Origin: a virus
Reading direction: 5' to 3' (one strand)
DNA: 25,646 bases
Virus record (IMG/VR): IMGVR_UViG_3300031566_003703
Span: 1 to 25,646 of that record
Shown: piece by piece, positions 338-22,902 of the stretch
How the letters are laid out: every line of letters begins with the position of its first letter
Position numbering within the stretch: the stretch's first letter is position 1
The notes under the pieces: generated by a model
What the model saw: only the letters and a program-made list of their open reading frames with translations
The model's database searches: none
What the model was told of the DNA's origin: nothing
Translations under genes and position numbers: made by a program

Positions 338-3073
338 TTACGCCTTTTCAATAAAACAAATATTATAATAAAACGATATTGATTTAATGGTTGACTGTTC
401 GTGCATATCATCTATTAGTTTTTTCAATATCTCCATAGTCGAATCGGGCCGAAGGTGCTTACGATAATTGCCGTATAAATCTTCAATAATATAAAAACCG
501 CCACTATTTAGACTAGGCCACAACGAACGAAAGGTCGCTTGTTGTTCCAGAGGCAAATGGCCGCCGTCGTCAACAATAATATCATAAGGGCCGGACGGAA
601 AGACTTGTTCGGACAAAAACTTTGTATCTTCCTGGTGTCCCACAAACACCTTAATATTCTTTTGGCCCCTAAGATATTTCTGCCAAATACGAGTATTTTT
701 ATCGATGCCGAATATTTGGGATTGCGGGAACGCTTCTTTCCATAATAATAAAGATGCACCACGTAATACGCCAATTTCCAAAAACTTTAACGGTTTATTT
801 CTTAAATGCCCGATATGTTTATCATAAAGTCTAGTATATCCGTGAACCCAATATTTATCGGTCGCCAAATGCCTTAATTTCATAAACTGTTGCATAGCTA
901 AACCGTGAATCGAGTCGGAATCTACGGCTGATATATCAACTGATGGGTTATGCTTTATAAATATATCGCGACTCTTAAATATCCGGCATGGTATTTTGTC
1001 CCATTTTAATATTTTTAGCATTTCCAATCGTCGCCCACCACGATGCAAAACTAGCCGCCCTCCTGGTATTCGCCACATATCTAACGGATTTCTTAATCCA
1101 TTTTTTTCAATGTCACGATAAACTCTAATAGCGTCTTTCATTAAGTTGATGCAATGTCGTTTGCCCTTGCTGGTTAATGGATCACGGTCGGCAGGATTTA
1201 ATTTTTTTGTCAAATGTTGAAAATAAGGCAGTGCAACTAATTCGTCGTTAGTATAATCTTTACCATCAGCCACGTTTTGCATAAAAGGAGGAAAGGTCAA
1301 AATGAATTCTTTTATGCTACTAATGTTTTTGCGTGGATCGGAATAGGCTATGCGGTTATCGTACAATTCCTCGCTATCAAATATTATGCTACCGATATAA
1401 CTGTGTTGTTTGCGTTGTTTTGCTCCTCGTCCAAATTTCATAGGTTCACCTTTGATCGTATTTATTAAATCGACTGCATAGCCCCACGGCTTTAATTCAA
1501 CACAAGGATCGGCGTCCTTGCCCCGCAATTTCTTGCCGGTTATGTTTTTATCGTGACACAATACCAAATTAGGTTCCGGCGTCTCAAACGTCTCATAGGG
1601 ATATTTGTTTAACCCCAGATTCTCCTCAAATACTCCCATTTCCCCGCAATGCTTTTTGGGTATTTCCTTTAAGGCGAAACGCTCTTCTAGGCATCTAATT
1701 AATAATTGACGCGGGGCGATACATTGACTTAATACCGGTCGCTCGCGATAAGAATATAAACCGTCGTCAATATGTAAATTCCAGCGGTTTAAGTTGTAAG
1801 CAAATTTGTTTTGCGGGCGATAATCAAAGTGATCTTGAGTATAAAAACAATCATCCTCGCATAATGCGACATATTCGGTTTTAGTATTATGTGCCCCAAT
1901 CAAAACTTGTCGATATATATTTTCTAAAGAACGACCCATTTTACCGACGCAAATATTCTTACCCAAATCGGTCGGCTTTTGGGTTATGCTAATAATATCA
2001 TATTTTAATTTTTTTAATCTGTCCTCGACGAGACTAACCATATTGGCGTCGGCCACATTGGCCGTATAGTATAATATCGTCAAGTCGCTATTGGCGGGCT
2101 TAGTAGCTGATGTATCAATCGACGTATCGGCTTTAATCCCATCGGTAATACTAGATGTTACTCTCTCAAAAAATTCGCTGTGTTTTTTGTCATGTTGCCA
2201 AGTCGGTAGCGGGGCGAACTTATCCGCCAGCCATTGTAGGTCGTGTACTTGTTGCGGCCATTTATTACGGCCCCACAATTCAATCGAATATTTTCGGGCC
2301 TTACGTTGTTCCTTACCGCTCATCGGCCAGGGGATGCCCGCCGGGCCGTCGCCTTTACGGAACCAGTGAGAGAACCACGTATTTTTATTTACGACTTGCC
2401 GCCCACCCGACAGCCACGCCTTGCAAGCGACCTCGACGCCCATCTGCCCCCATTGTCCGTGGGCTTCGTCCATGCCGCCTAAATCCCAAAACCGCTTACG
2501 GTGAATAAACCAGCAGGCTCCCTGCCCGGTCATTACGTCGCATATCTTACCTTGCCGGTCAGGGTTGTTTTTGTGGGCTTGATATTCGTCGGGAAATTCG
2601 CGGGCAATCGGGGCGTCCCAATACTGTACCCGTAATGGCATATCTTTAGCGTCCGGCGACCGGAACCACATAAAGTCGGTCATCTTATTTAATTTTGGCG
2701 TCCAATTAACAACGTCCAGGTTGAACATCCGGGGAATAACCGTCCAGTCGTATTCGCAGTCGGCTTTTAGTTTTATATCAAAGCCCTGATCGAACATCGA
2801 ATGGCCGTCGGCCTTTAAGATGTACTTGGCGTCGGTTTGCCGGGCGGCTAAATTAATCGAGTGCCGTTGCCCAATGGCTTTTTCATGCACTATCGGTTTG
2901 ACACATGGGTCTTGTGGTAAACAACGCTCAATAGGGTTGTCATAACCGTCAAGAATCGGTATAACCTCAATGTCGCCTTCCGCTTTTTTTAATACATCCT
3001 CAATCGTATGCGGCAGATATATTTCATTACGGGCCGGTATGATTACGCATACTTTTTCATTAGTTAATTGCAA
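338..3073 (-). CDS. Multidomain glycosyltransferase / ParB-like / methyltransferase fusion
   Basis: This 911-residue protein has four recognisable parts. Residues 6-290 form a GT2-type GT-A domain: 'VCVIIPARNE', the metal-site-like 'ADGH' (88-91), 'GACWFIHRKRFWDLGGMDE' and a Trp/Gly/Glu block ending 'FSHWFR', a pattern close to polypeptide GalNAc-transferases (GT27). Residues 325-540 look like a second GT domain ('ALCEDDCF', 403-410). Residues 640-705 resemble a ParB/sulfiredoxin fold ('NGLRNPL', 'HRGGRRLEMLKIL'). Residues 745-911 are a class I SAM methyltransferase of the macrocin/rhamnosyl O-methyltransferase type ('FLEIGVLRGAS', 'IFGID', 'DIIVDDGGH', 'GGFYIIEDLYG'). The start is TTG with an AAGGA site, overlapping the repeat-protein gene by 14 bases. 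Substrates are not known; the neighbouring Ser-rich protein is the obvious candidate acceptor. Confidence 0.8.
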   Translation of the reverse strand: MQLTNEKVCVIIPARNEIYLPHTIEDVLKKAEGDIEVIPILDGYDNPIERCLPQDPCVKPIVHEKAIGQRHSINLAARQTDAKYILKADGHSMFDQGFDIKLKADCEYDWTVIPRMFNLDVVNWTPKLNKMTDFMWFRSPDAKDMPLRVQYWDAPIAREFPDEYQAHKNNPDRQGKICDVMTGQGACWFIHRKRFWDLGGMDEAHGQWGQMGVEVACKAWLSGGRQVVNKNTWFSHWFRKGDGPAGIPWPMSGKEQRKARKYSIELWGRNKWPQQVHDLQWLADKFAPLPTWQHDKKHSEFFERVTSSITDGIKADTSIDTSATKPANSDLTILYYTANVADANMVSLVEDRLKKLKYDIISITQKPTDLGKNICVGKMGRSLENIYRQVLIGAHNTKTEYVALCEDDCFYTQDHFDYRPQNKFAYNLNRWNLHIDDGLYSYRERPVLSQCIAPRQLLIRCLEERFALKEIPKKHCGEMGVFEENLGLNKYPYETFETPEPNLVLCHDKNITGKKLRGKDADPCVELKPWGYAVDLINTIKGEPMKFGRGAKQRKQHSYIGSIIFDSEELYDNRIAYSDPRKNISSIKEFILTFPPFMQNVADGKDYTNDELVALPYFQHLTKKLNPADRDPLTSKGKRHCINLMKDAIRVYRDIEKNGLRNPLDMWRIPGGRLVLHRGGRRLEMLKILKWDKIPCRIFKSRDIFIKHNPSVDISAVDSDSIHGLAMQQFMKLRHLATDKYWVHGYTRLYDKHIGHLRNKPLKFLEIGVLRGASLLLWKEAFPQSQIFGIDKNTRIWQKYLRGQKNIKVFVGHQEDTKFLSEQVFPSGPYDIIVDDGGHLPLEQQATFRSLWPSLNSGGFYIIEDLYGNYRKHLRPDSTMEILKKLIDDMHEQSTIKSISFYYNICFIEKA

Positions 3074-4472
3074 GGTCCAATTCCTTTTCCTGGTCGATAC
3101 CTAAATTAAATTCTATTTGTTGGTCTATGTATAAAACAAAGTCGGCAATCGAACTCATTGCCCCACTGGGCGAAGCCGATGGGCTAACGCTGGGAGATAC
3201 ACTAGGCGACGATGATGGGCTGACGCTTGGCGAAATAGAAGGACTGACAGACGGACTAACGCTAGGCGACACGCTAGGCGATACGCTAGGGGATAGGCTA
3301 GGGGATATTGATGGACTAATGGATGGTGAAAAACTAGGCGAAACAGACGGAGATAATGATGGCGACACGCTCGGCGAAACGCTGGGCGACAAACTAGGTG
3401 ATACGCTAGGCGACGCGCTAGGCGACAAGCTAGGAGAAACACTTGGCGTAGGCGACGGGCTAATAGACGGCGAGACCGACGGAGAAGCACTAAGAGAAAC
3501 AGAGGGTGATACGCTGGGAGATATTGACGGGCTAGCCGATGGGCTAATACTTGGGGAGACCGAAGGACTGGGACTTGCCGACGGACTAATGCTGGGCGAA
3601 ATAGATGGCGAAACACTTGGCGATAAACTTGGACTAATACTCGGACTTGGGCTGGCGGATGGCGAGATAGATGGACTTGTTGACGGAGATATAGACGGAG
3701 AAGCCGACGGGCTAACACTTGGCGATAAACTCGGCGAAACCGATGGCGAAACCGAAGGCGAAACACTTGGCGAAATACTCGGACTTGGGCTGGCGGATGG
3801 ACTAACCGACGGTGATGCGCTAGGGCTAACAGACGGCGATACACTAGGCGATACCGAAGGCGACGCACCATCGCCGCCCTCTTCTAAACTACACGCGAAA
3901 TCCGCCACCACGCCGCCGCCGCAATCACCTGTCCCCGTCCCTAAACTATTGACGGCGTAACAATGGCGGTAAGTAGTACTATTTGCGATAGTCACCGCTA
4001 TAGTATCGTGAACTTGAGTCCTGTTTGAATCTTTGTAAATAATATCTTGAAAGGTGGTGGCGGTGGGCCTTGATAGGGTGTGCCAGTATTGTGTGGCGTC
4101 ATTAACCGCCGCTGATTGATCTTGCGAATCATCCTCGCAGTTTCGCAGCCAAAAAGTAAAAATCGTATAATACCGTTGGGCGAGATAAATAGTTTCGGTG
4201 TGGTTGACTACCCAATAATAAGTATCATTGGTGTTATCATTCGAGACGGCCCAAAATGTCCAGTTAGAATTATCAACTCCAAAATCAGTGGTGAAATTTA
4301 ACGTAAAATCCCATGCCGAGGTATCAAAGAAACCCGCCCCGAAGTCTTTTTGCACGTGGGCATTAACCGACTTGTCCATTGACGTAACGGTGATATACGT
4401 CGCCGATTTGACTATATCATCGCTGGGGTCGGTTTCCACCCATGCAGCATCGGTAAATTGCTCGATAGACAC
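3060..4472 (-). CDS. Fibre-like protein with long Ser-Pro-Ser-x repeat domain
   Basis: The product is 470 residues. Residues 1-203 form a globular, Asn/Thr/aromatic-rich beta domain with four or more Cys, probably virion-anchoring or receptor-facing. Residues 204-436 are an almost perfect run of about 58 tetrapeptides Ser-Pro-Ser-x, where x is Val, Ala, Ile, Leu, Pro or rarely Thr, Phe or Ser. A 34-residue charged tail follows. Such arrays form extended rods like Ser/Pro-rich linkers in surface proteins, and dense Ser is a natural O-glycan acceptor. The start is GTG, with an AAGGAAAAAG ribosome-binding site just upstream. It overlaps the GT/methyltransferase fusion downstream. No signal peptide is seen, consistent with a virion rather than a secreted protein. 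The fibre role is inferred. Confidence 0.75.
   Translation of the reverse strand: MSIEQFTDAAWVETDPSDDIVKSATYITVTSMDKSVNAHVQKDFGAGFFDTSAWDFTLNFTTDFGVDNSNWTFWAVSNDNTNDTYYWVVNHTETIYLAQRYYTIFTFWLRNCEDDSQDQSAAVNDATQYWHTLSRPTATTFQDIIYKDSNRTQVHDTIAVTIANSTTYRHCYAVNSLGTGTGDCGGGVVADFACSLEEGGDGASPSVSPSVSPSVSPSASPSVSPSASPSPSISPSVSPSVSPSVSPSLSPSVSPSASPSISPSTSPSISPSASPSPSISPSLSPSVSPSISPSISPSASPSPSVSPSISPSASPSISPSVSPSVSLSASPSVSPSISPSPTPSVSPSLSPSASPSVSPSLSPSVSPSVSPSLSPSVSPSFSPSISPSISPSLSPSVSPSVSPSVSPSVSPSISPSVSPSSSPSVSPSVSPSASPSGAMSSIADFVLYIDQQIEFNLGIDQEKELDLAIN
3165..3863 (-). repeat. 12-base coding repeat array (Ser-Pro-Ser-x)
   Basis: About 58 in-frame copies of a 12-base unit encode Ser-Pro-Ser-x. Copies differ at synonymous positions and at the fourth codon, so the array is old enough to have diverged at the DNA level while the peptide period is kept. 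The periodic base pattern also opens long spurious frames on both strands. Such arrays expand and contract by slippage, so length variation between related phages is expected. Confidence 0.9.
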
Positions 4473-4841
4473 TTACTCTTTTTCCTTAAATCCGTTTGTT
4501 AAATCGACATTGCTAAACAGTGGGTTATCCAGTGGTTTGTCACGATAGGTATTTTTAATTTCGTTGCGTAAATCAAGCAACACGCTTTCGGGCGCAGTAT
4601 TTTTATTTTCGCTGCGCAGATCAAGAATCGCAATTAAAAGAGCGGTATTTTTAGGACCAAACACCTCGGCTTGATACATGCGGAATGTTTCTTCGTCGAT
4701 CTTACCATCCCTAAACTCATCCCCTTTGGTATTATGCTCCTGACGCAAATATTCCCTTGATGCCTCCAGATACCCGTATTTCTGCGTCCAGGTGATAACG
4801 GTCGGGGGAAAAACTACTTCCATTAATTTAATTTCCGCCAT
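4473..4841 (-). CDS. Hypothetical protein, possible tail or connector accessory
   Basis: This is a 122-residue soluble protein that I do not recognise. It begins 'MAEIKLMEVVFPPT', then is largely helical and charged, with two near-copies of a motif: 'LDLRSENKNT' and 'LDLRNEIKNT', about 15 residues apart, a short internal duplication. There are no Cys residues and no membrane segment. The ATG at 4841 has a good AAGGA site that lies at the end of the 14-residue mini-ORF upstream. It ends directly before the GTG of the repeat-fibre gene. A role as virion accessory or chaperone is only suggested by its position. Confidence 0.65.
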   Translation of the reverse strand: MAEIKLMEVVFPPTVITWTQKYGYLEASREYLRQEHNTKGDEFRDGKIDEETFRMYQAEVFGPKNTALLIAILDLRSENKNTAPESVLLDLRNEIKNTYRDKPLDNPLFSNVDLTNGFKEKE

Positions 4842-4843
4842 AA

Positions 4844-4888
4844 TCAGTCCTTAAACCCCTTATAGTATTGATAGCCTTTACCGGCCAT
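4844..4888 (-). CDS. 14-residue mini-ORF
   Basis: The frame reads MAGKGYQYYKGFKD and stops with TGA. An AAGGATAATAAAA ribosome-binding site precedes the ATG, and the stop codon is part of the leader of the next gene. It may be a real micropeptide or a leader that couples translation to the 122-residue gene. The only support is the well-placed ribosome-binding site. Confidence 0.35.
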   Translation of the reverse strand: MAGKGYQYYKGFKD

Positions 4889-4893
4889 TTTTA

Positions 4894-4953
4894 TTATCCT
4901 TGTACAAACAATTCATATTTAAACAAGGCGTTCATTTTTTCGGTGTTAGTCAT
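4894..4953 (-). CDS. 19-residue mini-ORF
   Basis: The frame reads MTNTEKMNALFKYELFVQG. The ATG has an AAGGATAGACT site and the TAA stop sits inside the ribosome-binding region of the next mini-ORF. Together the two mini-ORFs fill the 146-base gap between the virion-type protein and the 122-residue gene. I recognise no family. Confidence 0.35.
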   Translation of the reverse strand: MTNTEKMNALFKYELFVQG

Positions 4954-4987
4954 AGTCTATCCTTAACTCGGCGTGTAGGTAGTGTTG

Positions 4988-5599
4988 TTATACTTCGTAC
5001 CAGTTCAAAGTAATCCGGGCCACGGCGTTAAGGGCAAGGGCCGTTAATCGAAACGTATAAACCGTTTCAGGAATTAATATCCATTCGGCTTGCGACCTAG
5101 CTACGGCCTGTTGGCTGTTTTTCGTGCCAGAGAATCCTTCGACGCCAAATATTGTCGGTGCTCCGCCTAATGTATTAAGCGTGCCAGTAACTCCGAGCGA
5201 AACGGTATTGGCTGTTGCCCCCCCGGTAAAATCTGTAACCAGCGATGTAGTGGCAGAATCTCTGTTTCGATTCAACACGGTATATGCCGCTCCGTCAGCC
5301 GCTACGGTTCCTGCCTCTAAAATATCAAACGTGCCAAGGGCCGTCATAAAAATAGACGGGAATACGTGAACGTAATTAGCTCCGGTGGTAAACGATATGG
5401 TAATAAATTCGGCGGTGTCCATATCTAAATCCTGAACGACCGCGTAAAACATTCTGCCCTCATGTATCATGTAATGAGACCAATCCAATATCACTAACCC
5501 GCCGTCGTTAATATGGGCTATATTATCGGAATCAATACCTTCTGCCCCGTTCCTAATATACATAGCCCCTATGCCGGGTCGTTCTGCTTTTCTTGCCAT
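4988..5599 (-). CDS. Probable virion structural protein
   Basis: The product is 203 residues, rich in Ala/Thr/Gly/Val with beta-strand alternation and few charged residues. Motifs include 'HYMIHEGRMFYAVVQDLDM' near residues 42-60, 'NRNRDSATTS' near 110 and a C-terminal 'PETVYTFRLTALA' segment. The 'IHEG' strand, the NRNR turn and the late 'EGFSGTKN' loop recall a recurrent phage virion protein found near tail or decoration genes. The family match is from memory and unverified. The ATG overlaps the TAA of the upstream glycosyltransferase gene as TAATG, which indicates translational coupling. It has no membrane segment or enzymatic motif. Confidence 0.6.
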   Translation of the reverse strand: MARKAERPGIGAMYIRNGAEGIDSDNIAHINDGGLVILDWSHYMIHEGRMFYAVVQDLDMDTAEFITISFTTGANYVHVFPSIFMTALGTFDILEAGTVAADGAAYTVLNRNRDSATTSLVTDFTGGATANTVSLGVTGTLNTLGGAPTIFGVEGFSGTKNSQQAVARSQAEWILIPETVYTFRLTALALNAVARITLNWYEV

Positions 5600-6579
5600 T
5601 ATTTAACTCCTGCGACTATCGCGGATTCGATAAATTTATATACGTAATCCGCAAAGTGATTTGAGGTGTACTTGCTTAACATTAATCGCCGTCCCGCGTC
5701 GGCAATAGATTGATATTCTATCGGATTATTTGTAAACGCTTTAATCTTGTCAACGAAATTATTCTTATCGACATATATACAAGTTTCGCCGTCGACGAAT
5801 CCAAGCTGTTCATATTCTTTATGATACTGGGCGAAACAAACGCAACCGGCAAGCGGTATCTCGAAATATTTCGGTATAGGATAAAATTCACATAACGCTA
5901 ATGCCCCGACATATTCCGCCAGCATGTTGCCAAACTTCTTGCCTGATGGTGTCTTATTATTAAGATGGTAGTGCTGCCGAATACTAACACAGTCTTGATT
6001 AAAAGCCCACCGTCTAAACTCATAACAGGCAAACAGGTTCGCCCACGTTGCCCCGTTTGCCAACACCTGTGGATATCGGTCGCCCAATGATTTTCGTCCC
6101 GATTCAAACAGCGACGCGCCCGGTGCTATCGGAAAATACAAAAGCATATCGTCTGGGTTGCCGCCATAGCCTGTAATATGCGGGGCGATATATCTATAAT
6201 AACCATCCTTATACGGCGATATGATATATTTAACGCCTCTATCCAAAGCTCTTTTAACTCGCTGTGCCGCCGATAGTTTGTAAACATCGTCGCCGTTAGC
6301 ATACCGCCCGTTGAATTCCTTTTGATGTGGGTCGTTAAAATATTCTAACTTCAACGCGGGATGTTTTTCAATGTCTTCGATACGAATATGATGCGAACTG
6401 TGCGGGTCGAAAAAGATAATCACGTCGGCTTGAATATCGTCGGCATGGCAATCATCGTTAATTGATATTATTTTCTCAAACCTGTCTAACAACGATAAGA
6501 ACATACAGCGGTAAGACCAACTGTAAGTTGTGGTTTGCAGCTTGTGGTCTTTTTTGTTATATACTATTGCGGCTTTCAT
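5599..6579 (-). CDS. GT-B glycosyltransferase, CgeB-like
   Basis: This 326-residue protein has an N-terminal Rossmann-like half ('MKAAIVYNKKDH', 'ADVIIFFDPHS') and a C-terminal sugar-nucleotide-binding half with the typical CgeB/GT1-like signature: 'YFEIPLAGCVCFAQY' near 240, 'LGFVDGETCIYVD' near 258, and a final helix 'IADAGRRLMLSKYTSNHFADYVYKFI'-like region. The length fits single-domain GT-B enzymes. It should transfer a sugar from a nucleotide donor; donor and acceptor cannot be read. The ATG overlaps the stop of the 23-residue membrane peptide as ATGA, and its TAA overlaps the next ATG, placing it in one coupled operon with panD upstream and virion genes downstream. Confidence 0.75.
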   Translation of the reverse strand: MKAAIVYNKKDHKLQTTTYSWSYRCMFLSLLDRFEKIISINDDCHADDIQADVIIFFDPHSSHHIRIEDIEKHPALKLEYFNDPHQKEFNGRYANGDDVYKLSAAQRVKRALDRGVKYIISPYKDGYYRYIAPHITGYGGNPDDMLLYFPIAPGASLFESGRKSLGDRYPQVLANGATWANLFACYEFRRWAFNQDCVSIRQHYHLNNKTPSGKKFGNMLAEYVGALALCEFYPIPKYFEIPLAGCVCFAQYHKEYEQLGFVDGETCIYVDKNNFVDKIKAFTNNPIEYQSIADAGRRLMLSKYTSNHFADYVYKFIESAIVAGVK

Positions 6580-6647: not shown

Positions 6648-6733
6648 TTCTCTATCCTTTCAAAGACTTGTAGGTTTTCCTGAAACCATCGCAGGCACGA
6701 TGCCCTGCCGATAATACTTTTACAACTTTCCAT
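6644..6733 (-). CDS. 29-residue coupled micro-ORF
   Basis: The frame starts 'MESCKSIIGRASCLRWF' and ends 'FERIEK'. The ATG overlaps the panD stop as TAATG and the TGA overlaps the next ATG as ATGA, so both junctions have the form of translational coupling. It has two Cys and an amphipathic, basic-aromatic character. The DNA within it also holds a strong hairpin (a 7-bp stem of GCAGG/GCA type with one bulged G, loop TCG), so the segment may act as RNA rather than as peptide. Confidence 0.4.
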   Translation of the reverse strand: MESCKSIIGRASCLRWFQENLQVFERIEK

Positions 6734-7188
6734 TATCGCCAGCGATAAGTCGGCACGATATTTATGCGTTCCACGTGAAACGATTTTATCCCGCCAATAC
6801 TCGTTCGATTGCGGGTTGACGTGGTCGGGGCTATTAGGTTTATCGCTGCCGGTGAAGACGATCCATACGGCTTTATTATTCTGGGAGTAATCGTTTCAAA
6901 ATGATTATCAGCAAACCCAAACGCTAATATATTAACCCTGTGCCCGACCGCCGACAATTGAGCTGTCGCCCCTAATATGTTTATTTCACCGCTGCCCCGT
7001 TTGGCTGCAACCGCATACGTTTCAAAGCGATTGCCGTTATCGCAATCAGCAACCAACACCTTTTCATAAACGCCAATATCAGCCCTGTCTAATAAATCCA
7101 AATCTATGCCGATGCTGCCGTCGCAATCGGCTTCGGTTTTAGTTACAACTCCGCTGTGTATTTTCGCTCTTAAATATTGTCTAAACAT
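6733..7188 (-). CDS. panD: Aspartate 1-decarboxylase (PanD)
   Basis: This protein would convert L-aspartate to beta-alanine with a pyruvoyl cofactor made by self-cleavage. It aligns with E. coli PanD without gaps over about 85 residues: Lys9, His11, the cleavage pair Gly24-Ser25 ('DGSIGID'), Arg54, Thr57, Tyr58 ('GNRFETYAVAAKRGS') and Gly73 fall at the same numbers. Asn72 is replaced by Leu. The chain is 151 residues against about 126 in E. coli; roughly the last 40 ('YGSSSPAAIN...') are an unrelated Ser/Thr/Arg-rich extension. The ATG has an AGGAAAGGA site 9 bases after the ATP-grasp stop. PanD normally serves pantothenate/CoA synthesis, but no other pan gene is present, so beta-alanine is more likely used in the local cassette. 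Confidence 0.85.
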   Translation of the reverse strand: MFRQYLRAKIHSGVVTKTEADCDGSIGIDLDLLDRADIGVYEKVLVADCDNGNRFETYAVAAKRGSGEINILGATAQLSAVGHRVNILAFGFADNHFETITPRIIKPYGSSSPAAINLIAPTTSTRNRTSIGGIKSFHVERINIVPTYRWR

Positions 7189-7200
7189 AATTGTCCTTTC

Positions 7201-8178
7201 CTATTGCCGTTCGACTATTTGTAGATTCGCAATGTCCTGAAACATTCCATCTAGCAATAACTGGGCTATTAGCGGAAATTGGTCAAGTCCTTTGTATTTG
7301 GTTCGATTATATGTTCCATGGGAATCTCGATCATACCACCAACCACCGCCCATCATACCAGTGCCCCAACTGCAAGTAATCTCTGTCATAATCGGCTTAT
7401 GATCGCAGTCGTAAATTAAATCAACAGCCGTTCTAGTAAAATTATATTTACTGGAAAATCGCCAGGCGTAATCCATCATTTCTACGGCAGCCTTATCTAA
7501 TATATCATAATGCTTAACGCCATATCTCCTAATTGATTCGCCGTCAACAATACCGTTGTCGCCTGCGGTTCGTTTGCCTATCCAAAAATAACGATTAGCC
7601 AAAACGATAACCCGGTAGTCGCCGTCGTTACCGGACATATATTTTTGTAAAATAACAGAGCTGTTAGGTTTGTCGGAAAATGCCTTTTCAATCGCTTGTA
7701 CCGATTCTATTTGATTATGAACTATTTTAACGCCCATACCGCCAGCCTGGTTACTAGGCTTAACGATAATAGGCAATTTCATCCGGCCAACTACTTTGTG
7801 CGCCTCGCTTTTATTTCGCAAACACAATGTCGGTGGAAAATAACCCGGAAACGATTCGTGCTGTTTGGCCTTATTATTATAAAGTTCACACTCAAATAAA
7901 GTTGGAGTCATAATAACGCGGGGACAAAGGCTGTGAGTTTGTTTGGCTAATAACAAATCTTTTTTTAATTGTTCGGTATGATGATGTAAGTTCAGAAATA
8001 ACGTCGATCCTTCAGCGTCAAGAATCTCTTTGGTATTAGTAACAATTTGAGCAATTGCGCCTAATTTTTTTAATTCCCAAAATATATTTTGCCCCCACCC
8101 TCTTAAATCGTTATTAAGATATATTTTACCTGTCACCGCTGATACCCCCATTACAATTATGGTTGGCATTGAAACCAT
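7201..8178 (-). CDS. ATP-grasp ligase (RimK-like)
   Basis: This 325-residue enzyme should join a carboxylate to an amine or thiol through an acyl-phosphate. The ATP-grasp fold is visible: 'LPIIVKPSNQAGGMGVKIV' (135-153) with the nucleotide-binding Lys140 and Gly-rich loop, 'GDYRVIVLANRYFWIGKR' (186-203) as in RimK, and the metal-binding 'AVDLIYD' Asp253 and 'ITEIT'-like Glu266 ('MTEITCSWG'). The N-terminal 110 residues hold a preATP-grasp-like region with 'FLNLHHHTEQ'. It overlaps the Asn-synthetase-like gene by 53 bases, an unusually long overlap. Later ATGs are possible starts, but none has a clear ribosome-binding site. Lying directly before panD, it is a candidate for ligating beta-alanine, but this is inferred from order only. 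Confidence 0.78.
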   Translation of the reverse strand: MVSMPTIIVMGVSAVTGKIYLNNDLRGWGQNIFWELKKLGAIAQIVTNTKEILDAEGSTLFLNLHHHTEQLKKDLLLAKQTHSLCPRVIMTPTLFECELYNNKAKQHESFPGYFPPTLCLRNKSEAHKVVGRMKLPIIVKPSNQAGGMGVKIVHNQIESVQAIEKAFSDKPNSSVILQKYMSGNDGDYRVIVLANRYFWIGKRTAGDNGIVDGESIRRYGVKHYDILDKAAVEMMDYAWRFSSKYNFTRTAVDLIYDCDHKPIMTEITCSWGTGMMGGGWWYDRDSHGTYNRTKYKGLDQFPLIAQLLLDGMFQDIANLQIVERQ

Positions 8179-9310
8179 TTTTTACATTAACGTCGTAAGG
8201 ATATTTATTACGAGTAAAATACTCATGTAACGGTGCTTTGTACGCAACGTTTTTTAATTTTGGCGTTAGATGTAAAAACTCTTGAACTAAATCAATATCA
8301 AGATAAGGATAACGGGCTTCAACACCGTAAAGACGACCAATAAATTCTGTTTTAGCGATATAAGCATCCATTGTTCCTTTATAAAAATTACCGTAGGGAA
8401 ATACCGATGATAAATCGTCGGGGAATAAGCCGCCCAATTGTGATTGCGAATAATGCTGACGATTGTTCCACCCGTAGTCGCTGATTATCTCGTCGCTGCC
8501 ATGCCCGGACAGCGCAATTGATTTATTGTTACGGCGGCCTTTGTCGCAAACCCACGCATCGCCAGCCGATGCTTTATCGAACTTGTAATTGTACTCGGTT
8601 TGTCCGAGATGGTCACTACTACTCTTTCCCCAGTGATTTATCCGACATTTGTAATCAACGCCACATTTGATTACGTTATCTCGGTACGAATTATATTCGT
8701 CGATAGTAAAATATTTTATCGTGCTGTTATTGAGCAGTTTATGTCTTGCGGTTAAAATATATTCTGCTTCATTTGCCCTTAGCGTATAAGCATCGAACGG
8801 CACATTCTGTTTCTGTAGCTCACAAGCAATCGCCCCGGAATCATAGCCGCTGGACAGGCCGATGAATAATTGGTCGGCGACATCCTTCGTCCGCTTAGCT
8901 ATCGCCGCCTCAAACGCCTCGATCCATTTGTCGTAGGTTTTTACGTTTTGGGTTAAGTCCCAATCGTAAACATTTATTCCTTGTCTTAACCCGCCATTAT
9001 CTAAATCGTACACGTAAGCGTAATTAGGCGGAACCTTTTGGCCACAACCTGGAGGAGGACAATCAACAACGCCAACCAACCCGCCTTTATCTTTGTGCGA
9101 CAATATCCATAGCGGCTTCGATGCAAACGCATCCACCGCCACGATCATTATGTTTTCGCCCTTGTCTTCAAGCACTAACGAAAAGTCGCCGTCGATATAC
9201 TTCACGAACTCAGACCCGGCGGCATTATATGCTTCTAATAGGTTCGTATTATAAACCGAACCCCATAGCTTGATCGTTATATCCCCGCTGCCATTTTTAA
9301 TTTCCTGCAT
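8126..9310 (-). CDS. Asparagine-synthetase-like amidotransferase lacking the glutaminase Cys
   Basis: The 394-residue product keeps the synthetase half of AsnB-type enzymes: ATP pyrophosphatase loop 'SSGYDS' (153-158), 'ALSGHGSDEII' (266-276), 'EARYPYLDIDLVQEFL' and 'YKAPLHEYF'. The N-terminal part retains late strands of the Ntn glutaminase fold ('YIDGDFSLVLED', 'VDAFASKPLWIL'), but the chain begins too late to contain the catalytic Cys2 of AsnB. It should therefore use free ammonia or another amine, or activate a carboxylate for a different ligation, as in beta-lactam synthetases. The ATG overlaps the upstream small gene by 14 bases. The synthetase class is confident; substrate and product are unknown. 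Confidence 0.78.
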   Translation of the reverse strand: MQEIKNGSGDITIKLWGSVYNTNLLEAYNAAGSEFVKYIDGDFSLVLEDKGENIMIVAVDAFASKPLWILSHKDKGGLVGVVDCPPPGCGQKVPPNYAYVYDLDNGGLRQGINVYDWDLTQNVKTYDKWIEAFEAAIAKRTKDVADQLFIGLSSGYDSGAIACELQKQNVPFDAYTLRANEAEYILTARHKLLNNSTIKYFTIDEYNSYRDNVIKCGVDYKCRINHWGKSSSDHLGQTEYNYKFDKASAGDAWVCDKGRRNNKSIALSGHGSDEIISDYGWNNRQHYSQSQLGGLFPDDLSSVFPYGNFYKGTMDAYIAKTEFIGRLYGVEARYPYLDIDLVQEFLHLTPKLKNVAYKAPLHEYFTRNKYPYDVNVKNGFNANHNCNGGISGDR

Positions 9311-9518: not shown

Positions 9519-9561
9519 CGTATATTCGATTAATTTCGGTTCGTAATTCTTCTGCTGTCAT
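9484..9561 (-). CDS. 25-residue ORF, possible 5' part of the following gene
   Basis: The frame starts 'MTAEELRTEINRIYDVSDG' and ends 'RPNYRS' before TGA. Its ATG overlaps the stop of the GT8-like gene as ATGA, and a GGAAAGGTGG site lies upstream. Composition is protein-like. It overlaps the 73-residue frame by 35 bases in another phase. A single-base indel, or a real ribosomal frameshift near 9490-9510, would join them. Confidence 0.4.
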   Translation of the reverse strand: MTAEELRTEINRIYDVSDGRPNYRS

Positions 9562-10391
9562 CTCTCATTCCACCTTTCCAAATGGTCTATCCATAAATCG
9601 TACATCTTGCCGCCGTCGGTTTGCATAATCTTCAAATCGAATTGTCGCTCGCGTAATACTTTACGCCACGGACCTTTATAATGAATCACACAAACATCGT
9701 CAAAGTTTTGCGTTCGCCTAGTCTCATTCAAATACTTACACGGCACGCCACGCAAAAAACAGCCGTTGCGGACAAAACCGGTTTTATAGTCTTCTTTTTT
9801 TCTAGTCTTGATAATGCGACCGAACGCGGCCTGTTGCAAACCGCCCCAAAGATTAAGCGGATCGCCGTCATTTCGGATAACCCAGTTGGTTTCATTTTGC
9901 CATAGACTGTAAAATTTACGAACACGGTCGCTATTATTGATAATCTGGATACCGGCGTTAATCGGCCATTGTATCTGTTCGTCCGGCTCAGTCTTATAAG
10001 TAAATATTATATCTTCTTGAACCGGGTGAATATAATAATCTAATCGTTTTCGGACCAGCATATCACAGTCAAGCACAACCATCAGGCCGTCTATCGCGTC
10101 ATCTACTCCGACGGTTAAAAAATATCGTTCAAGGGCTATATGTTGCTGTTGACCTTTTACGTCGTCTTCGATATTCATATTACAACCATGTTTTTCTAAA
10201 TTGTAATAATACATCTTAGTTTGTGGCGATTTGCGTTTGATTTCCTTAACAATGTCAACCGATAAATTATCATAATAAATTATCGGCTGGGCGTCGCTGC
10301 CATAAACCTCGTCTATACTGTTCAATAGCACAAACAGATAATCGGCAAAATCATCGCTATATACACAAGTTAAAAATCGTAGTGGTTTCAT
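9558..10391 (-). CDS. GT-A glycosyltransferase, GT8-like
   Basis: This 277-residue enzyme begins 'MKPLRFLTCVYSDDFADYL', the nucleotide-binding strand of GT-A folds, and carries the metal-binding DxD in 'VVLDCDMLV' (DCD at 108-110). 'PINAGIQIINN' near 155 and 'CVIHYKGPWRK' near 243 match the acceptor-side NAG and terminal H-x-K-G motifs of GT8-type glycosyltransferases. The length is normal for a single domain without a membrane anchor. It should use a UDP-sugar with Mn; donor and acceptor are unknown. It is followed by an ATGA-coupled ORF and lies between another GT and the amide-forming genes. Confidence 0.78.
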   Translation of the reverse strand: MKPLRFLTCVYSDDFADYLFVLLNSIDEVYGSDAQPIIYYDNLSVDIVKEIKRKSPQTKMYYYNLEKHGCNMNIEDDVKGQQQHIALERYFLTVGVDDAIDGLMVVLDCDMLVRKRLDYYIHPVQEDIIFTYKTEPDEQIQWPINAGIQIINNSDRVRKFYSLWQNETNWVIRNDGDPLNLWGGLQQAAFGRIIKTRKKEDYKTGFVRNGCFLRGVPCKYLNETRRTQNFDDVCVIHYKGPWRKVLRERQFDLKIMQTDGGKMYDLWIDHLERWNER

Positions 10392-10432
10392 TTTGCCTTT
10401 TTCTTCTTACTCCCGGCAAGCCGTCGGATCGT
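10388..10432 (-). repeat. Diverged copy of the GT-B gene's 3' end
   Basis: This 45-base segment ends in a TGA that overlaps the ATG of the GT8-like gene. It can be aligned without gaps to the last 45 bases of the GT-B gene (10752-10708), with 32 of 45 bases identical by my count. Translated, the tails are TIRRLAGSKKKKAK here and TARQFTGGRKKKVK there. No start codon precedes it: its frame opens just after the stop of the CCGHG-protein gene. It looks like the stranded tail of a duplicated or interrupted gene. Confidence 0.45.
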
Positions 10433-10450
10433 TTTTTTAATAGTTAATGT

Positions 10451-10711
10451 TCATCCGTCTTCAAGAACAATGTAATCGCTTTCTGTCCCATGACCACAAC
10501 AGCTAGACGTGGTAATTATTCCATTATCATTTAATGCTTGAACAATATTTGATATACAATTATCTATGTGTCCGGTTTTTGTTTTTTGTGGTAATTTTCC
10601 GCATCGTTTACAAACACGTTCATCTTGTACTATCTCATTATTATCTATATACCGCCATTGTTTGCCGTCATAAATAGCTGGCCATCCGCGAAAATTACTA
10701 TATAGACTCAC
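10451..10711 (-). CDS. Small Cys/His metal-binding phage protein (CCGHG type)
   Basis: The product is 86 residues. It has 'GKQWRYIDNNEIV' near 16-28, then 'CKRCGKLPQKTKTGHIDNC' and 'SCCGHGTESDYIVLEDG', a layout I recall from many phage-encoded small proteins of unknown role (C-x-x-C-G, G-H-x-x-C, CCGHG). Conserved Cys and His residues probably bind zinc. The start is GTG at 10711, overlapping the GT-B stop (GTGA). No enzymatic function should be assumed. Confidence 0.65.
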   Translation of the reverse strand: MSLYSNFRGWPAIYDGKQWRYIDNNEIVQDERVCKRCGKLPQKTKTGHIDNCISNIVQALNDNGIITTSSCCGHGTESDYIVLEDG

Positions 10712-11883
10712 TTTACCTTCTTCTTCCTGCCCCCGGTAAACTGTCTAGCCGTATTGCATTGTTTCTTTTTCTTGTCCGCCTTCGTTTGCCGTCGTCGCTC
10801 CGCCCGACTGTTTTCCTGTCGCTCGGCGTATTCGCGTGATTCTGGCTTGTGGTTAGCAAGAGTATTTTCTAATACTTTTTTCATGGCGATACCGGTCTGT
10901 TCGAGGTTGAATAATCGTTGAGCCTTATGTCTTATAGTGTAACTATCCTGGCAGTTCTTACCTTCCTGTATCGCTTGCCAACATTGGGCTATTTGGTCGG
11001 CATAAGCCTCAATGTTTCTTGGGTCCACACCGAAATGAGTATAGGCACAACCGCCCCCCGCTACTATCGGAGTGCCACAAGCCATAGCCTCGCGGATAAC
11101 GCGGGTAGCGATTACATGAGGTGTTACTACAATATCAGCCGCCCGATACGTCTCGGCCATTTTTGTAATCGGACCCTTGCGGTCGCCGATACCGCCTCTA
11201 TCGTACAGCCATTTAATCATATTTGTAATTGCATCGTGTTTGCGGATACCGTAAATATGAACCTTAGCGGTCGGACAATATTTCTCTCTAAACAATAACG
11301 CGGCATGTATAACGTTATAAGGCGTGGTGTCTTCACGCCATTGATCGACAACTACGATGTTGGGCGACCCGGAATTTTCGCCAAAGTCTCGTTTCGGACC
11401 TTCCGGGCAGAACGCTTCCAGGTCGCACATCGCAGGTACGTAATTTAACTTCGAATTGTCAATGAGCTGCGACCAGTGGAATATATGTTCGTCCCAAAAC
11501 GAGACGAACGCATCCCACGCATCACGTTCGGTATATACGGTGCGATATACATCGTTTCTAGTATAGACGCCTAATAAAAACGAGTTTTCCGGGCGGCCAT
11601 GTAAGCACATGACCTTCGGCTGTTTACCGGAGTACATATACTTTTGTGGCACTAGAACATGCCGAACCAATATATCAGCTTCGTCCGCCCATTCCATTTT
11701 TTCGGTAGTCAGCCAGTCGTCTTTATGAATTCGTGCGCGGGTGAATTCGATTCCCGGTGAACTATCAACCGAAATCAGCCGGGCGTCTATCCCCTGCATT
11801 CGCTCGGCTTTTATCAAATCCTTTACCGTGCCGTATTGCCCGGATAAATTAGGGGCAAACCGGCTGAAGTGTGCTACTTTCAT
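10708..11883 (-). CDS. GT-B glycosyltransferase, GT4-like
   Basis: The product is about 391 residues. It starts 'MKVAHFSRFAPNLSG', with a Gly-rich donor loop, and carries the retaining GT4 C-terminal signature 'REAMACGTPIVAGGG' near residue 270, after 'AETYRAADIVVTPH'. This is the nucleotide-sugar-binding half of a GT-B fold. The last 45 residues are a highly basic Arg/Lys tail that could bind RNA or acidic surfaces and is atypical of the family. I chose the ATG at 11883 over one 15 bases upstream because GGAAAGAGAG sits correctly for it. The tail's DNA has a diverged copy 276 bases downstream. Donor and acceptor are unknown; cassette membership is clear from spacing. Confidence 0.78.
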   Translation of the reverse strand: MKVAHFSRFAPNLSGQYGTVKDLIKAERMQGIDARLISVDSSPGIEFTRARIHKDDWLTTEKMEWADEADILVRHVLVPQKYMYSGKQPKVMCLHGRPENSFLLGVYTRNDVYRTVYTERDAWDAFVSFWDEHIFHWSQLIDNSKLNYVPAMCDLEAFCPEGPKRDFGENSGSPNIVVVDQWREDTTPYNVIHAALLFREKYCPTAKVHIYGIRKHDAITNMIKWLYDRGGIGDRKGPITKMAETYRAADIVVTPHVIATRVIREAMACGTPIVAGGGCAYTHFGVDPRNIEAYADQIAQCWQAIQEGKNCQDSYTIRHKAQRLFNLEQTGIAMKKVLENTLANHKPESREYAERQENSRAERRRQTKADKKKKQCNTARQFTGGRKKKVK

Positions 11884-11897
11884 AATCTCTCTTTCCA

Positions 11898-12017
11898 TTA
11901 GGCTGACCGTTTCGCCGCTTCTTTTCCGCTAAAATGTTTTTCACAAAGATGGATTACTAAAAAATAATAACATGCACTTAAAAATCCAAACATGTATGCG
12001 ATAATTACAGTTGCCAT
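11898..12017 (-). CDS. 39-residue membrane protein
   Basis: The frame starts 'MATVIIAYMFGFLSACYYF' and ends in a polar 'GKEAAKRSA' tail, giving one transmembrane helix of about 20 residues with the basic end at the C terminus. The ATG at 12017 has a GGAAAGAGAG site. The same frame stays open upstream to 12134, but that part crosses a hairpin and the end of the tRNA and has no good start. It is the first gene after the tRNA. A holin or anchor role is possible but not shown. Confidence 0.5.
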   Translation of the reverse strand: MATVIIAYMFGFLSACYYFLVIHLCEKHFSGKEAAKRSA

Positions 12018-12053
12018 GATCTCTCTTTCCTGATAACGATGATTTTCTTGAAT

Positions 12054-12098
12054 AAAAAAAGGCCGACGCCGCCATGAACGGAGTCTAATACTCCGCCT
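12054..12098 (-). terminator. Possible terminator downstream of tRNA
   Basis: A perfect 6-bp hairpin (CGGAGT/ACTCCG, 5-base loop, 12079-12095) is followed by a GC-rich stretch and a run of seven T on the minus strand at 12060-12054. The T-run lies 18 bases beyond the stem, so it is not a textbook intrinsic terminator; it may be an RNA-processing or attenuation structure. Confidence 0.35.
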
Positions 12099-12122
12099 AC
12101 GCATGACAGGTGAGTTAAAAAA

Positions 12123-12196
12123 TAGCAGCGACAAAACTCGAACCTGTGACCTCGTGGTTATGGGCCACGCGAGCTAGCCAACTGCTCTACGCTGCG
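12123..12196 (-). tRNA. tRNA with CAT anticodon, initiator-like
   Basis: The 74-base gene folds as a complete cloverleaf: a 6-bp acceptor GCAGCG/CGCTGC with an unpaired C1-U72, D stem GAGC/GCTC, anticodon stem CGTGG/CCACG with loop CCCATAA, variable loop AGGTC, and T arm ACAGG-TTCGAGT-TTTGT. The anticodon is CAT. The C1-72 mismatch and A11-U24 pair are hallmarks of bacterial initiator tRNA. Of the three G-C pairs usual in the anticodon stem (29-31/39-41), two are present. Position 33 is C rather than U, which is unusual. CCA is not encoded. It could also be read as an elongator Met or lysidine-type Ile tRNA, but the D arm argues for initiator. Confidence 0.85.
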
Positions 12197-12202
12197 ATAT
12201 AA

Positions 12203-12238
12203 ATCGGCAGGCCCGACCCCTCGACGGGCCGTACCGAT
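12203..12238 (-). other. Strong hairpin before the tRNA
   Basis: ATCGG (12203-12207) pairs with CCGAT (12234-12238), and GGCCCG (12210-12215) with CGGGCC (12225-12230), with a small internal loop and a 9-base apical loop. It sits 6 bases upstream of the tRNA 5' end, in the gap after the capsid accessory gene. No T-run follows, so it is more likely a processing or stability element than a terminator. Confidence 0.45.
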
Positions 12239-12299
12239 ATATTGTCCTAATGGTACTAGGGTTTTTTACAACAAAGTTGTTGCCAACAGAATCGTTGGA

Positions 12300-12896
12300 C
12301 TAATCAAGAATCGCAGTAGGAGGGACTTCCTTCTGATAACGATTGTCTTTAACGAAGATGAACGTCAAGCTACACATCACCGAAGCTGCCGGATCGCTAA
12401 CCGTGATGTAAAAACAATCACGACTAACTCCGTCGTCGGCGGCGTTGTAAACATCCGCAGCGTCAACCTCGATAGTCGTCATCCCGCCACAAATACTATC
12501 CGCGTCAGAATCGTTAGGATTCCAAGCGTCGGATGCGGCCATATCGGATAACTGTAAATCGGAAGTGTTGGTTGTCATCGTTTGGGCGGTATCCCAGGTG
12601 TCCCCGGCTAAATCAGAAATCGTAGCCATTGCCACTTGAGCCTTACGCCACTTAAACGAATCCATCGCAACGGCATTAGCACCGGCAACCGTAGAACATG
12701 CGTAAAGATTAATTGTGGCGTCGGCTATTGCCGATGTAACGCCAAAGTTAAATGAACACAGTACGTGGTCGTAATTCTTGAGGCTAATCGCCCGACTCTG
12801 CGTAGTGCTGTTAGCCAATGAACCCGAACTGTTACCAGCCGCCAGATCAAAAGGCGGCCATCCTTGAACAATATGAATAGGTCCTAATTGTCTCAT
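12300..12896 (-). CDS. Probable capsid accessory or decoration protein
   Basis: This 198-residue protein directly follows the major capsid gene, with a GAAAGGCGG site before the ATG. It is Ala/Ser/Thr/Asp-rich, of beta character and without membrane segments: 'MRQLGPIHIVQGWPPFDLA' at the start, a repetitive middle with 'ISDLAGDTWDTAQTMTTN', and a final 'FYITVSDPAASVMCSLTFIF' strand. The position after the HK97-type major capsid gene is the usual site of a decoration or head-stabilising protein. The product itself has no motif that I can name, so the role rests on context. Confidence 0.6.
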   Translation of the reverse strand: MRQLGPIHIVQGWPPFDLAAGNSSGSLANSTTQSRAISLKNYDHVLCSFNFGVTSAIADATINLYACSTVAGANAVAMDSFKWRKAQVAMATISDLAGDTWDTAQTMTTNTSDLQLSDMAASDAWNPNDSDADSICGGMTTIEVDAADVYNAADDGVSRDCFYITVSDPAASVMCSLTFIFVKDNRYQKEVPPTAILD

Positions 12897-12913
12897 AGTA
12901 TATTACCGCCTTT

Positions 12914-14347
12914 CTATTGGGTGGACAGAATAATAAACGGACTAAGTTCGTTAGTATTATCTGTACCACCGGTCGGATGTTTCGGGGTTAAAGGTTCGCT
13001 CCAGTGGGGTTGCCCGTCATAACGCAATACGGCCCTGAAGGCTACTTCGTCGTAATCAAATTTAAGATGGATCGACTTGTCCATCGCCGGACTATTTCGC
13101 CCGGCCTTGCCGCCGATAAGATACTGACTGAAATCAGCTAGTATAATATCACCGGCAACTCTCGGAGCTTGGCAATGCTCAGTAATAATTACCGGGCGGC
13201 CAAAAATCGTGCCGTAAGGGGATACCGCGGCATTAGCGGGATCGCCGCCAACGTAAACCGGGGTATGGCTCGTAGTGATATCCGAACAATCGGAATCTTT
13301 ACAACTCACACAAGCGGTCATTAAGTCTGGCAGAGTCGAAGGTGCGACCAGCCAGACGGCTTGCTGATGGCCTCCGGCATACATCGAACTCCACATATTT
13401 ACTAAATCAAGATAGCTAATGCCGCAACCAGAACGGGTACGGGTAATCAGACATCCAGAATTCATTATACCGAGCGGCATATTGGCTCCGGTGCCATTGA
13501 TGAAATCATTGTCCTCTTGAAAAGCGATAGCTTGACCAAATAAATCATTGATCATGGGTTCGATAGAAATGGGAGAATCTTCCAAAAGTTCATCCGAAAC
13601 GTAAGTCAGCAATACTGTTTTATGCAGCGTCAACTGAATGCGTTCAAATTTAGGCTTGGAAGGATTCTTGGGCCCGGCTTCGGCGGGACGCTTGATTTGT
13701 AACGCACCAAACAATCCATCGCCTGCCGGACGGTGATCGTAATCGACTAATCCGGGCATTTGAATAGAGTTGGTATTCATCGGAATAAATCTGGCTAGTG
13801 GTCGAACGACAGATTTTTCTAATGATCGTTGCAATAGTGAGGCTGAGAATTCGGTCGGAACCAAATACCCACCCTGTTCAGGATCGACTTCCGCCATATG
13901 GCCGGTAGTTTTTTCCTGCCAAGAATCTTTTGACTTATCGGCAGTCATTTTTTGCCAGATACGCATTTTCTTATGAATTGCGGTATTACCGCCAGGGTTT
14001 TGCCCTACATCATATACGCTCTTGGCAAATTCTGCCATGCAGGAAAATCCACCTTTGGGATCGTCCTCGGCGAGGTCTTGGACCTCAAATTTCGGACCTT
14101 TTGGAATAAAGTCCTTCATCGCTATGACAACTGCTTTGGTGACGAATTCTATATCATCTTTACGTTTTTGATTCTCGTCTTCTGGTTCCTCGACAACTTC
14201 GGGAATCACAATTTCAAGAACGCCCTCGTCGATATAAGGTTGAATCTCCTTTTGGGAATGATTCAATTGAAACACCTTATTTTTCGGATATAGCTTATCG
14301 CCATTTTGCCAGCCATCATCGCTTAAAACACGAATAGTTAAACTCAT
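12914..14347 (-). CDS. Major capsid protein, HK97 fold
   Basis: The 477-residue product has a charged N-terminal scaffold-like (delta) region of about 140 residues ('VVEEPEDENQKRKDDIEF'), then the HK97 capsid core: 'EQGGYLVPTEFSASLLQ' near 152 (the N-arm), 'LLTYVSDELLEDSPI' near 250, 'AIAFQEDNDFINGTGANMP' near 280, and 'IFGRPVIITEHCQAP' and 'DFSQYLIGG' near 385-405, all typical in order and spacing. The N-terminal region should be removed by the neighbouring protease during head maturation. The ATG has an AGGAGCATAAC site. Several Cys between residues 300 and 370 are more than usual for this fold and could form disulfides that stabilise the shell. Confidence 0.88.
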   Translation of the reverse strand: MSLTIRVLSDDGWQNGDKLYPKNKVFQLNHSQKEIQPYIDEGVLEIVIPEVVEEPEDENQKRKDDIEFVTKAVVIAMKDFIPKGPKFEVQDLAEDDPKGGFSCMAEFAKSVYDVGQNPGGNTAIHKKMRIWQKMTADKSKDSWQEKTTGHMAEVDPEQGGYLVPTEFSASLLQRSLEKSVVRPLARFIPMNTNSIQMPGLVDYDHRPAGDGLFGALQIKRPAEAGPKNPSKPKFERIQLTLHKTVLLTYVSDELLEDSPISIEPMINDLFGQAIAFQEDNDFINGTGANMPLGIMNSGCLITRTRSGCGISYLDLVNMWSSMYAGGHQQAVWLVAPSTLPDLMTACVSCKDSDCSDITTSHTPVYVGGDPANAAVSPYGTIFGRPVIITEHCQAPRVAGDIILADFSQYLIGGKAGRNSPAMDKSIHLKFDYDEVAFRAVLRYDGQPHWSEPLTPKHPTGGTDNTNELSPFIILSTQ

Positions 14348-14356
14348 GTTATGCTC

Positions 14357-14500
14357 CTATGGGAGAGACAAATTAATCAGCCTTGCTTGTTCGGCCTCAT
14401 AAATAGCGGCGTCCATCTCATCGTCCGATCTCGTAATGAGCGGCGACGAAATTGGATGGCTGGCGACTATCTCCAGAGCAGCAACTTGAAGGAGTGGGGC
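14357..14500 (-). other. Gap with protein-like frame after the protease stop codons
   Basis: The 174-base gap between the protease and capsid genes contains a 47-codon stretch in the protease reading frame, after two TAA codons, that looks coding ('LEIVASHPISSPLITRS', then an internal ATG giving 'MDAAIYEAEQARLINLSLP'). The second TAA lies in the loop of a 5-bp GC hairpin (GGGGC/GCCCC, 14496-14512). There is no clear ribosome-binding site at the ATG. It may be the decayed end of a longer protease, or a mini-gene. Confidence 0.35.
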
Positions 14501-14521
14501 TTAACGCGCCCCGGACGAGCG

Positions 14522-15739: not shown

Positions 15740-15777
15740 AATTACTCCAATTAAACAACTATTTTGTAGTCTATCGA

Positions 15778-15813
15778 AACTAAACTTATCTTTCTTGGCA
15801 TTAAAGTTTAGTT
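15778..15813. promoter_or_regulatory. Inverted repeat between portal and protease genes
   Basis: AACTAAACTT (15778-15787) and AAGTTTAGTT (15804-15813) form a perfect 10-bp inverted repeat with a 16-base spacer in an AT-rich 102-base gap. It could be an operator or an RNA hairpin. An AT-rich TATACT box lies upstream of it on the minus strand, but no convincing -35 box is visible. Confidence 0.4.
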
Positions 15814-15841
15814 AGTATATATATTCATTTGACATATAAAG

Positions 15842-18118: not shown

Positions 18119-18212
18119 GTTATGTCCACATTGAATGTGTGTTTATTGATATGATTGCCCCCGGAAAATTGATATTAATATTCTTGGTATTTACGCTAGG
18201 AGAATAAATAGT

Positions 18213-18638: not shown

Positions 18639-18663
18639 CTTGTTCCTTTCCTAATATCCGTAT

Positions 18664-18927
18664 TTATTTTTGCACATTTCGTTTCAGTCTTTTAGTCGTA
18701 CCATCGGAGTTGAGTTTAAATGCACTGTAAACCACCTTCTCTAAAGCGGCAATACGTTCGGCCTGTGTCGGCGACTTCGATGGTTCGATTTTAGGTTCAA
18801 CTTTTGCTTCAATTACCGGCTTCGACTTTTGAATTGGCGGTTCAACTTCCGGCTTCGGTTCAACCGGCATTCGTTTTTGTGTTTCAGCTTCCAAGACTTT
18901 GGTTAGATAGGTTTTGTTTGTTAGCAT
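18664..18927 (-). CDS. Hypothetical Pro/Glu/Lys-rich protein
   Basis: This 87-residue protein has a central low-complexity linker of Pro-Lys-Pro and Glu-Val-Glu repeats (about residues 18-52, with 'EPKPEVEPP' and 'KVEPKIEPSK'), flanked by short helical ends including 'QAERIAALEKVVYSAFKL'. It is likely disordered in the middle. The ATG has an AAAGGATAACTT site. No family is recognised. Confidence 0.55.
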   Translation of the reverse strand: MLTNKTYLTKVLEAETQKRMPVEPKPEVEPPIQKSKPVIEAKVEPKIEPSKSPTQAERIAALEKVVYSAFKLNSDGTTKRLKRNVQK

Positions 18928-18930
18928 AAG

Positions 18931-19236: not shown

Positions 19237-19239
19237 ATC

Positions 19240-19812: not shown

Positions 19813-19833
19813 CTCAAATCCTTTCCGTTAGAT

Positions 19834-22894: not shown

Positions 22895-22902
22895 ACCGAC
22901 GG

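Follow-up and report, generated by a model that had tools for sequence, protein, structure and literature searches.

A panD, ATP-grasp and truncated AsnB-like cassette in the glycosyltransferase island of a tailed phage: a possible route to beta-alanine/amide tailoring of virion glycans

Introduction

Glycans on phage virions are already known. To our knowledge, there is no earlier case of their tailoring with amino acids or amides by phage-encoded enzymes, and papers searched for accounts of panD in phages yielded nothing usable in the texts covered. Among the closest described systems, the mycobacteriophages Che8, Corndog and Myrna encode glycosyltransferases that act on virion proteins, while the sections of that report covered here make no mention of PanD or amide-forming genes for these phages (PMC12363180). 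The DNA stretch analyzed in the present work (hereafter the window) is the whole 25,646-base virus record IMGVR_UViG_3300031566_003703, a metagenomic record of an uncultured phage. In the same way as these mycobacteriophages, it carries phage-encoded glycosyltransferases. Several of them are located in its virion operon and form a glycan island that is conserved in two relatives, a sister phage and a more distant one (L191). Unlike what is described for Che8, Corndog and Myrna, the island also contains genes for a predicted aspartate decarboxylase and for two predicted amide-forming enzymes.

Gene layout of the window

The original prediction placed a three-gene cassette at 6733-9310, inside a glycosyltransferase cluster among virion genes. 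Its coordinates, strand and gene order proved correct: glycosyltransferase ORFs were found on both sides, and the island is located downstream of the genes for capsid, protease, portal and large terminase. The features are listed below in minus-strand order.

24418-24966, minus strand: ParB-like partner of the ABC/GNAT gene (PF02195)
23357-24439, minus strand: ABC-ATPase/GNAT fusion, context for a possible DNA acylation
12914-14347, minus strand: HK97-type major capsid protein, upstream of the island (PF05065, E 2e-39; sister 74%)
10708-11898, minus strand: glycosyltransferase group 1 of the island (Glyco_trans_1_4, E 4.5e-8; sister 79%, L191 45%)
9558-10391, minus strand: glycosyltransferase-like island protein (no Pfam match of its own; sister 68%, L191 copies 32-33%)
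8126-9310, minus strand: AsnB-like synthetase half, 394 aa (PF00733, E 5e-9)
7201-8178, minus strand: predicted ATP-grasp amide/peptide-type ligase, 325 aa (Pfam ATP-grasp models)
6733-7188, minus strand: PanD, pyruvoyl-type aspartate 1-decarboxylase, 151 aa (PF02261, E 2.6e-28, active-site residues)
5599-6579, minus strand: glycosyltransferase directly downstream of PanD (Glyco_trans_1_2, E 5e-10; sister 78%, L191 53%)
3060-4472, minus strand: Ser/Pro-repeat (mucin-like) protein (134 Ser and 62 Pro of 470 residues)
338-3073, minus strand: large protein at the end of the island, GT2 N-terminal and methyltransferase C-terminal (PF00535, PF13578; sister 79% over residues 1-333)

A small ORF precedes and another follows the glycosyltransferase-like gene, whose L191 homologue has a Nucleotid_trans match below cut-off, and a further ORF (4988-5599) is found between the glycosyltransferase that follows PanD and the Ser/Pro-repeat gene. 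A tRNA-Met gene (12122-12197, minus strand) is located between a post-capsid ORF (12300-12896) and the island.

The cassette is tightly packed, with a 53-nt overlap of the AsnB-like and ATP-grasp genes and a 12-nt gap before PanD. It does not resemble a recent foreign insert, since its GC content (39.6-45.6%) compares with that of the whole window (44.1%). No uronic-acid-forming nucleotide-sugar enzyme was identified in the island. A second record, IMGVR_UViG_3300031539_000503, contains two stretches essentially identical to the window (10063-24347 at 100% and 18360-25646 at 99.99%). It provides no independent confirmation of the cassette, because the matching stretches read end short of it and an AsnB search of this record was empty.

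The cassette in a sister phage

Scans of viral contigs with the single PanD, ATP-grasp and AsnB sequences each returned zero relatives, and alignments were needed. A genome scan with the AsnB alignment allowed identifying the contig JAAEQF010000145.1 (53,453 bases), binned in a 'FCB group bacterium' MAG. This contig is a phage, whose portal, capsid, terminase and three island glycosyltransferases are 68-84% identical to their counterparts in the window; its capsid and portal are 74-76% identical (74% for the capsid). It contains a truncated AsnB, an ATP-grasp and a PanD gene in the same order as the window, separated by intergenic gaps of 1 nt and flanked by the same glycosyltransferases. The AsnB copy is 66% identical over 393 aa, the ATP-grasp copy 47% and the PanD copy 79% over 105 aa. 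The conservation of this order in the same island of a clearly diverged phage indicates that the three genes form a unit and did not come together by chance in a single assembly. The complete trio was found in these two genomes only.

Nei-Gojobori dN/dS between window and sister was ~0.09 for PanD (dN 0.165, dS 1.8) and ~0.15 for AsnB, rough values with dS near saturation; by this rough estimate, both genes appear to be under purifying selection. A Ser-rich repeat protein (L161 14844-15623) is found in the sister at the same place as the Ser/Pro-repeat protein of the window. Downstream of the sister PanD, a 255-aa ORF without Pfam match was observed; it has a homologue in L191 and a conserved size of ~240 aa. 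By eye, this island ORF (L161 10438-11205; L191 10074-10775) resembles alkaline phosphatases and sulfatases (LDACRxD, T/S-DHGE), and it is not present in the window.

The three enzymes of the cassette

PanD matches PF02261 at 98.7 bits against a cut-off of 25, over residues 1-105, and residues 106-151 form a C-terminal extension that is not common to the sister copy. Like bacterial PanD and most viral PanD found, it keeps K9, H11, the G24-S25 cleavage site, R54, T57 and Y58 (E. coli numbering); the original prediction had named all of these except H11, and all are present. It differs from bacterial PanD in its score with the NCBI panD equivalog model (79.7 bits, under the 106-bit cut-off) and at Asn72, which is replaced by Leu in window and sister, a change that might affect processing; some PanD of other viruses have His or Arg there. 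Moreover, in a tree whose deeper forks are weak and whose long branches were flagged, the window and sister PanD pair on one long branch (100/100) that is separate from the viral PanD groups of Jace-type and T4-like phages. This suggests that they were acquired separately from the other viral PanD groups.

The neighbouring enzyme had been called Asn-synthetase-like, a description that holds for its synthetase half. This half is intact, with an ATP-pyrophosphatase loop SSGYDS (SGGxDS-like), a SGHGSDE motif and the conserved Lys (K358), as in AsnB and the uronic acid amidotransferases of polysaccharide clusters. Unlike in these enzymes, the glutaminase half is cut: GATase_7 matches in its C-terminal part only (profile 58-109 of 123), and the first ~70-90 residues, Cys2 included and reaching to about position 85 in relatives, are gone from window and sister alike. 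Relatives with a recognised loop motif start with Met-Cys in 28 cases out of 30, the exceptions being the sister and L166. The lost N-terminus was found neither in any frame of the window nor in the sister, and a frameshift as the cause of the short protein was ruled out, the sister being equally truncated.

Glu348 of E. coli AsnB plays a role in aspartate handling. At this position, His is found in the window (SGHGSDE versus SGEGSDE), Gln in the sister and mostly Ser or Gln in relatives; wherever the motif was found among AsnB-like relatives, the residue was His, Gln, Ser or Gly and Glu occurred 0 times. Lacking Cys2, the glutaminase half and Glu348, the protein is not an ordinary asparagine synthetase. 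Judged from these residues, the predicted protein is unlikely to synthesize asparagine from glutamine and cannot work as a normal amidotransferase fed by glutamine. Its closest phage relatives, at 41% identity, come from cyanophages such as S-SCSM1, in which the gene is surrounded by a run of nucleotide-sugar epimerases, glycosyltransferases and methyltransferases. AsnB relatives among sugar genes were also observed in two bacterial loci checked.

The ATP-grasp protein gave weak matches to several models, namely GSH-S_ATP (39 bits, E 5e-10), Ddl and CPSase, over their cut-offs, as well as RimK. In an alignment of the window with two relatives, K140, D253 and E266 are invariant, and the acidic metal ligands are kept. 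A low-confidence AlphaFold model from three sequences (pLDDT 55, informative for fold class only) matches Ddl, LysX/ArgX and biotin carboxylase folds. The protein thus has, by profile and weak fold match, the ATP-grasp core of amino acid ligases (Ddl, LysX/ArgX, RimK, carnosine synthase) but differs from them in its third metal ligand, the usual Mg-binding Asn not being conserved. Used alone as a query against phages, plasmids and genomes, it retrieved only generic ATP-grasp proteins. It is predicted to be an amide/peptide-type ligase.

Carnosine synthase, itself an ATP-grasp enzyme, joins beta-alanine and histidine, and small-molecule pathways include ATP-grasp plus AsnB-type enzymes. By analogy with these families, the cassette could release a soluble beta-alanyl dipeptide or amide, with no decoration of the virion. 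Yet the cassette is located inside a glycosyltransferase island of the late operon and is kept there in the sister, and such a product is considered very improbable.

Core and optional members of the glycan island

L191 is a distant relative (capsid 49%) with the same island frame as the window. It contains a glycosyltransferase (45%), two glycosyltransferase-like copies, a methyltransferase, an ATP-grasp (27-30% identity), a second methyltransferase, two copies of the glycosyltransferase found at 5599-6579 in the window and the homologue of the 255-aa ORF. In the 9.6 kb read after its capsid gene, neither AsnB nor PanD is present. From this pattern in three genomes, which is not a statistic, the ATP-grasp looks like a core member of the island, and AsnB and PanD like an optional pair.

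The three genes may also be unconnected genes for tailoring or metabolism, placed in one island but serving no common pathway. The ATP-grasp would then add another acid or amine to the glycan, the AsnB-like enzyme would use free ammonia to amidate a uronic acid, and PanD would act independently. Indeed, the ATP-grasp is found in L191 without the other two, flanked by methyltransferases, and so need not act on beta-alanine; their absence from that island means that the three genes need not form one pathway. In parallel, PanD was absent near the AsnB relatives in 17 phage and 20 bacterial loci. On the other side, PanD and AsnB occur together, two of the genomes having both and the third having neither, and the packing suggests a single transcript. 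On balance, independent functions are possible but rather unlikely.

The tentatively preferred reading, held with somewhat less than even confidence, is that beta-alanine would be made locally for amide tailoring of a virion glycan. PanD and AsnB would then constitute an optional beta-alanine/amide branch of the island, which builds glycans and belongs to the late (virion) operon of a tailed phage. As a first step, PanD would self-cleave at Gly24-Ser25 and decarboxylate aspartate to beta-alanine, as its family and conserved residues indicate. The glutaminase-less AsnB-like half would next activate a carboxylate with ATP and join it to an amine other than glutamine-derived ammonia, candidates being beta-alanine or free ammonia. 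The ATP-grasp would add another amide bond by way of an acyl phosphate, like carnosine-type or amino acid ligases. Finally, the island glycosyltransferases would put the modified sugar on a virion protein; from its position, the Ser/Pro-repeat protein at 3060-4472 is a possible mucin-like candidate for the glycan acceptor. In this scheme, the ligation of beta-alanine to any acceptor is inferred. The earlier idea of a beta-alanine/amide cassette thus survives in part: its order is kept in the sister, in which ABC/GNAT and family III CoA-transferase matches are missing, but the ATP-grasp of L191 occurs without PanD and AsnB. If tailoring of the virion is confirmed, panD in viruses would gain a reason other than coenzyme A, and beta-alanine would offer an easy mass label (+71 Da).

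PanD in other viruses and the supply of coenzyme A

The gene was expected to be rare in phages and is so: tblastn with PanD matched 15 of 50,697 phage records. Of the records inspected, those of Jace and Achromobacter phage 2-1 clearly belong to phages, and some others resemble bacterial contigs. Such bacterial-looking 'phage' records, for example one with panC-panD (MT839897) and a region of Acinetobacter phage MD-2021a, inflate phage panD counts. In IMG/VR, a four-row PanD alignment matched 55 panD loci.

The arrangement of panD beside ATP-grasp and AsnB genes, proposed as a database search by the original prediction, was found in the sister and at none of the other viral panD loci, neither family being near panD in more than 50 of them. 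In addition, 36 records with a PanD or AsnB gene, examined over their full length, gave no GSH-S_ATP match. Viral panD without these neighbours, which the original prediction had named as counter-evidence if seen in related phages, is thus found in a broad sense. In marine T4-like contigs (L007-L019 except L014), panD has the gene of the gp45 sliding clamp on one side and that of the gp44 clamp loader on the other. In others, it directly follows ribonucleotide reductase genes, whose two subunits are separated by a GDSL hydrolase (L028-L031, L040, L041, L043, L044), and in Achromobacter phage 2-1 its neighbours are RNaseH/DNA polymerase genes.

This recurrence in unrelated phages lacking ligase neighbours is what would be expected if PanD served as an auxiliary metabolic gene, giving the infected host more beta-alanine for its pantothenate and coenzyme A. 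Several observations argue against this role for the window. As had been predicted, no panB or panC is nearby, their models having no match among the 20 window ORFs compared with Pfam; a separate PanD is encoded by the MAG to which the sister contig was binned, although the virus-host assignment is putative; and the gene is positioned in a late glycan island rather than in a metabolic module. Supply of coenzyme A is accordingly rated as unlikely.

ParB, ABC/GNAT and DNA modification

In Jace and relatives, panD belongs to an operon of ParB, ABC-ATPase/GNAT, PanD and a short family III CoA-transferase, often just upstream of terminase genes. Loci of this type are L003 (Jace, 2347-5112), L046, L048, L055, L057, L058 and L151; L061 starts inside PanD, so that only PanD and the CoA-transferase are visible. 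The ABC-ATPase/GNAT family was predicted to acylate a DNA base (PMC7824862), and the operon suggests beta-alanyl-CoA as the acyl donor for a DNA-base acyltransferase. Like Jace (a Rhodococcus/Gordonia phage), the window has a phage PanD as well as ParB and ABC/GNAT genes, and beta-alanine might be activated and the ABC-ATPase/GNAT at 23357-24439 might then transfer it to a DNA base.

Yet the window PanD differs from that of Jace in its partners and position: it is 16 kb from the ABC/GNAT gene, no CoA-transferase (CoA_transf_3) match was found, and it groups apart from Jace-type PanD in the tree. Moreover, ParB adjoins the ABC/GNAT relative at 74 of 83 loci, and PanD does so at 7, each time accompanied by the CoA-transferase (a sample of 80 loci plus four others, in which some of the 7 PanD loci are the same contig twice), so PanD is missing from most ABC/GNAT loci. 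In the sister, the ABC/GNAT slot at the ParB locus is occupied by a TET-associated glycosyltransferase (TAGT; PF20691, E 7e-43), and neither ABC/GNAT nor family III CoA-transferase had a match in the binned genome. Since the cassette is kept there, it does not depend on the ABC/GNAT gene, and alternative uses of PanD are weakened. A DNA-modification reading, initially favoured for the Jace-type operon, was lowered for this reason and is now regarded as highly improbable for the window.

In a broader view, phages would have recruited PanD several times, installing beta-alanine on virion glycans here, by means of an ATP-grasp ligase and an AsnB that lacks its glutaminase, and on DNA bases in Jace-type phages, through beta-alanyl-CoA (family III CoA-transferase) and an ABC/GNAT acyltransferase; this combined scenario is decidedly unlikely. 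Finally, comparison of window 23357-24966 with L184 10550-12047 revealed an apparent swap of DNA-modification enzymes beside ParB, ABC/GNAT in one and the TET-associated glycosyltransferase in the other, which makes the function of the uncharacterised ABC/GNAT family testable.
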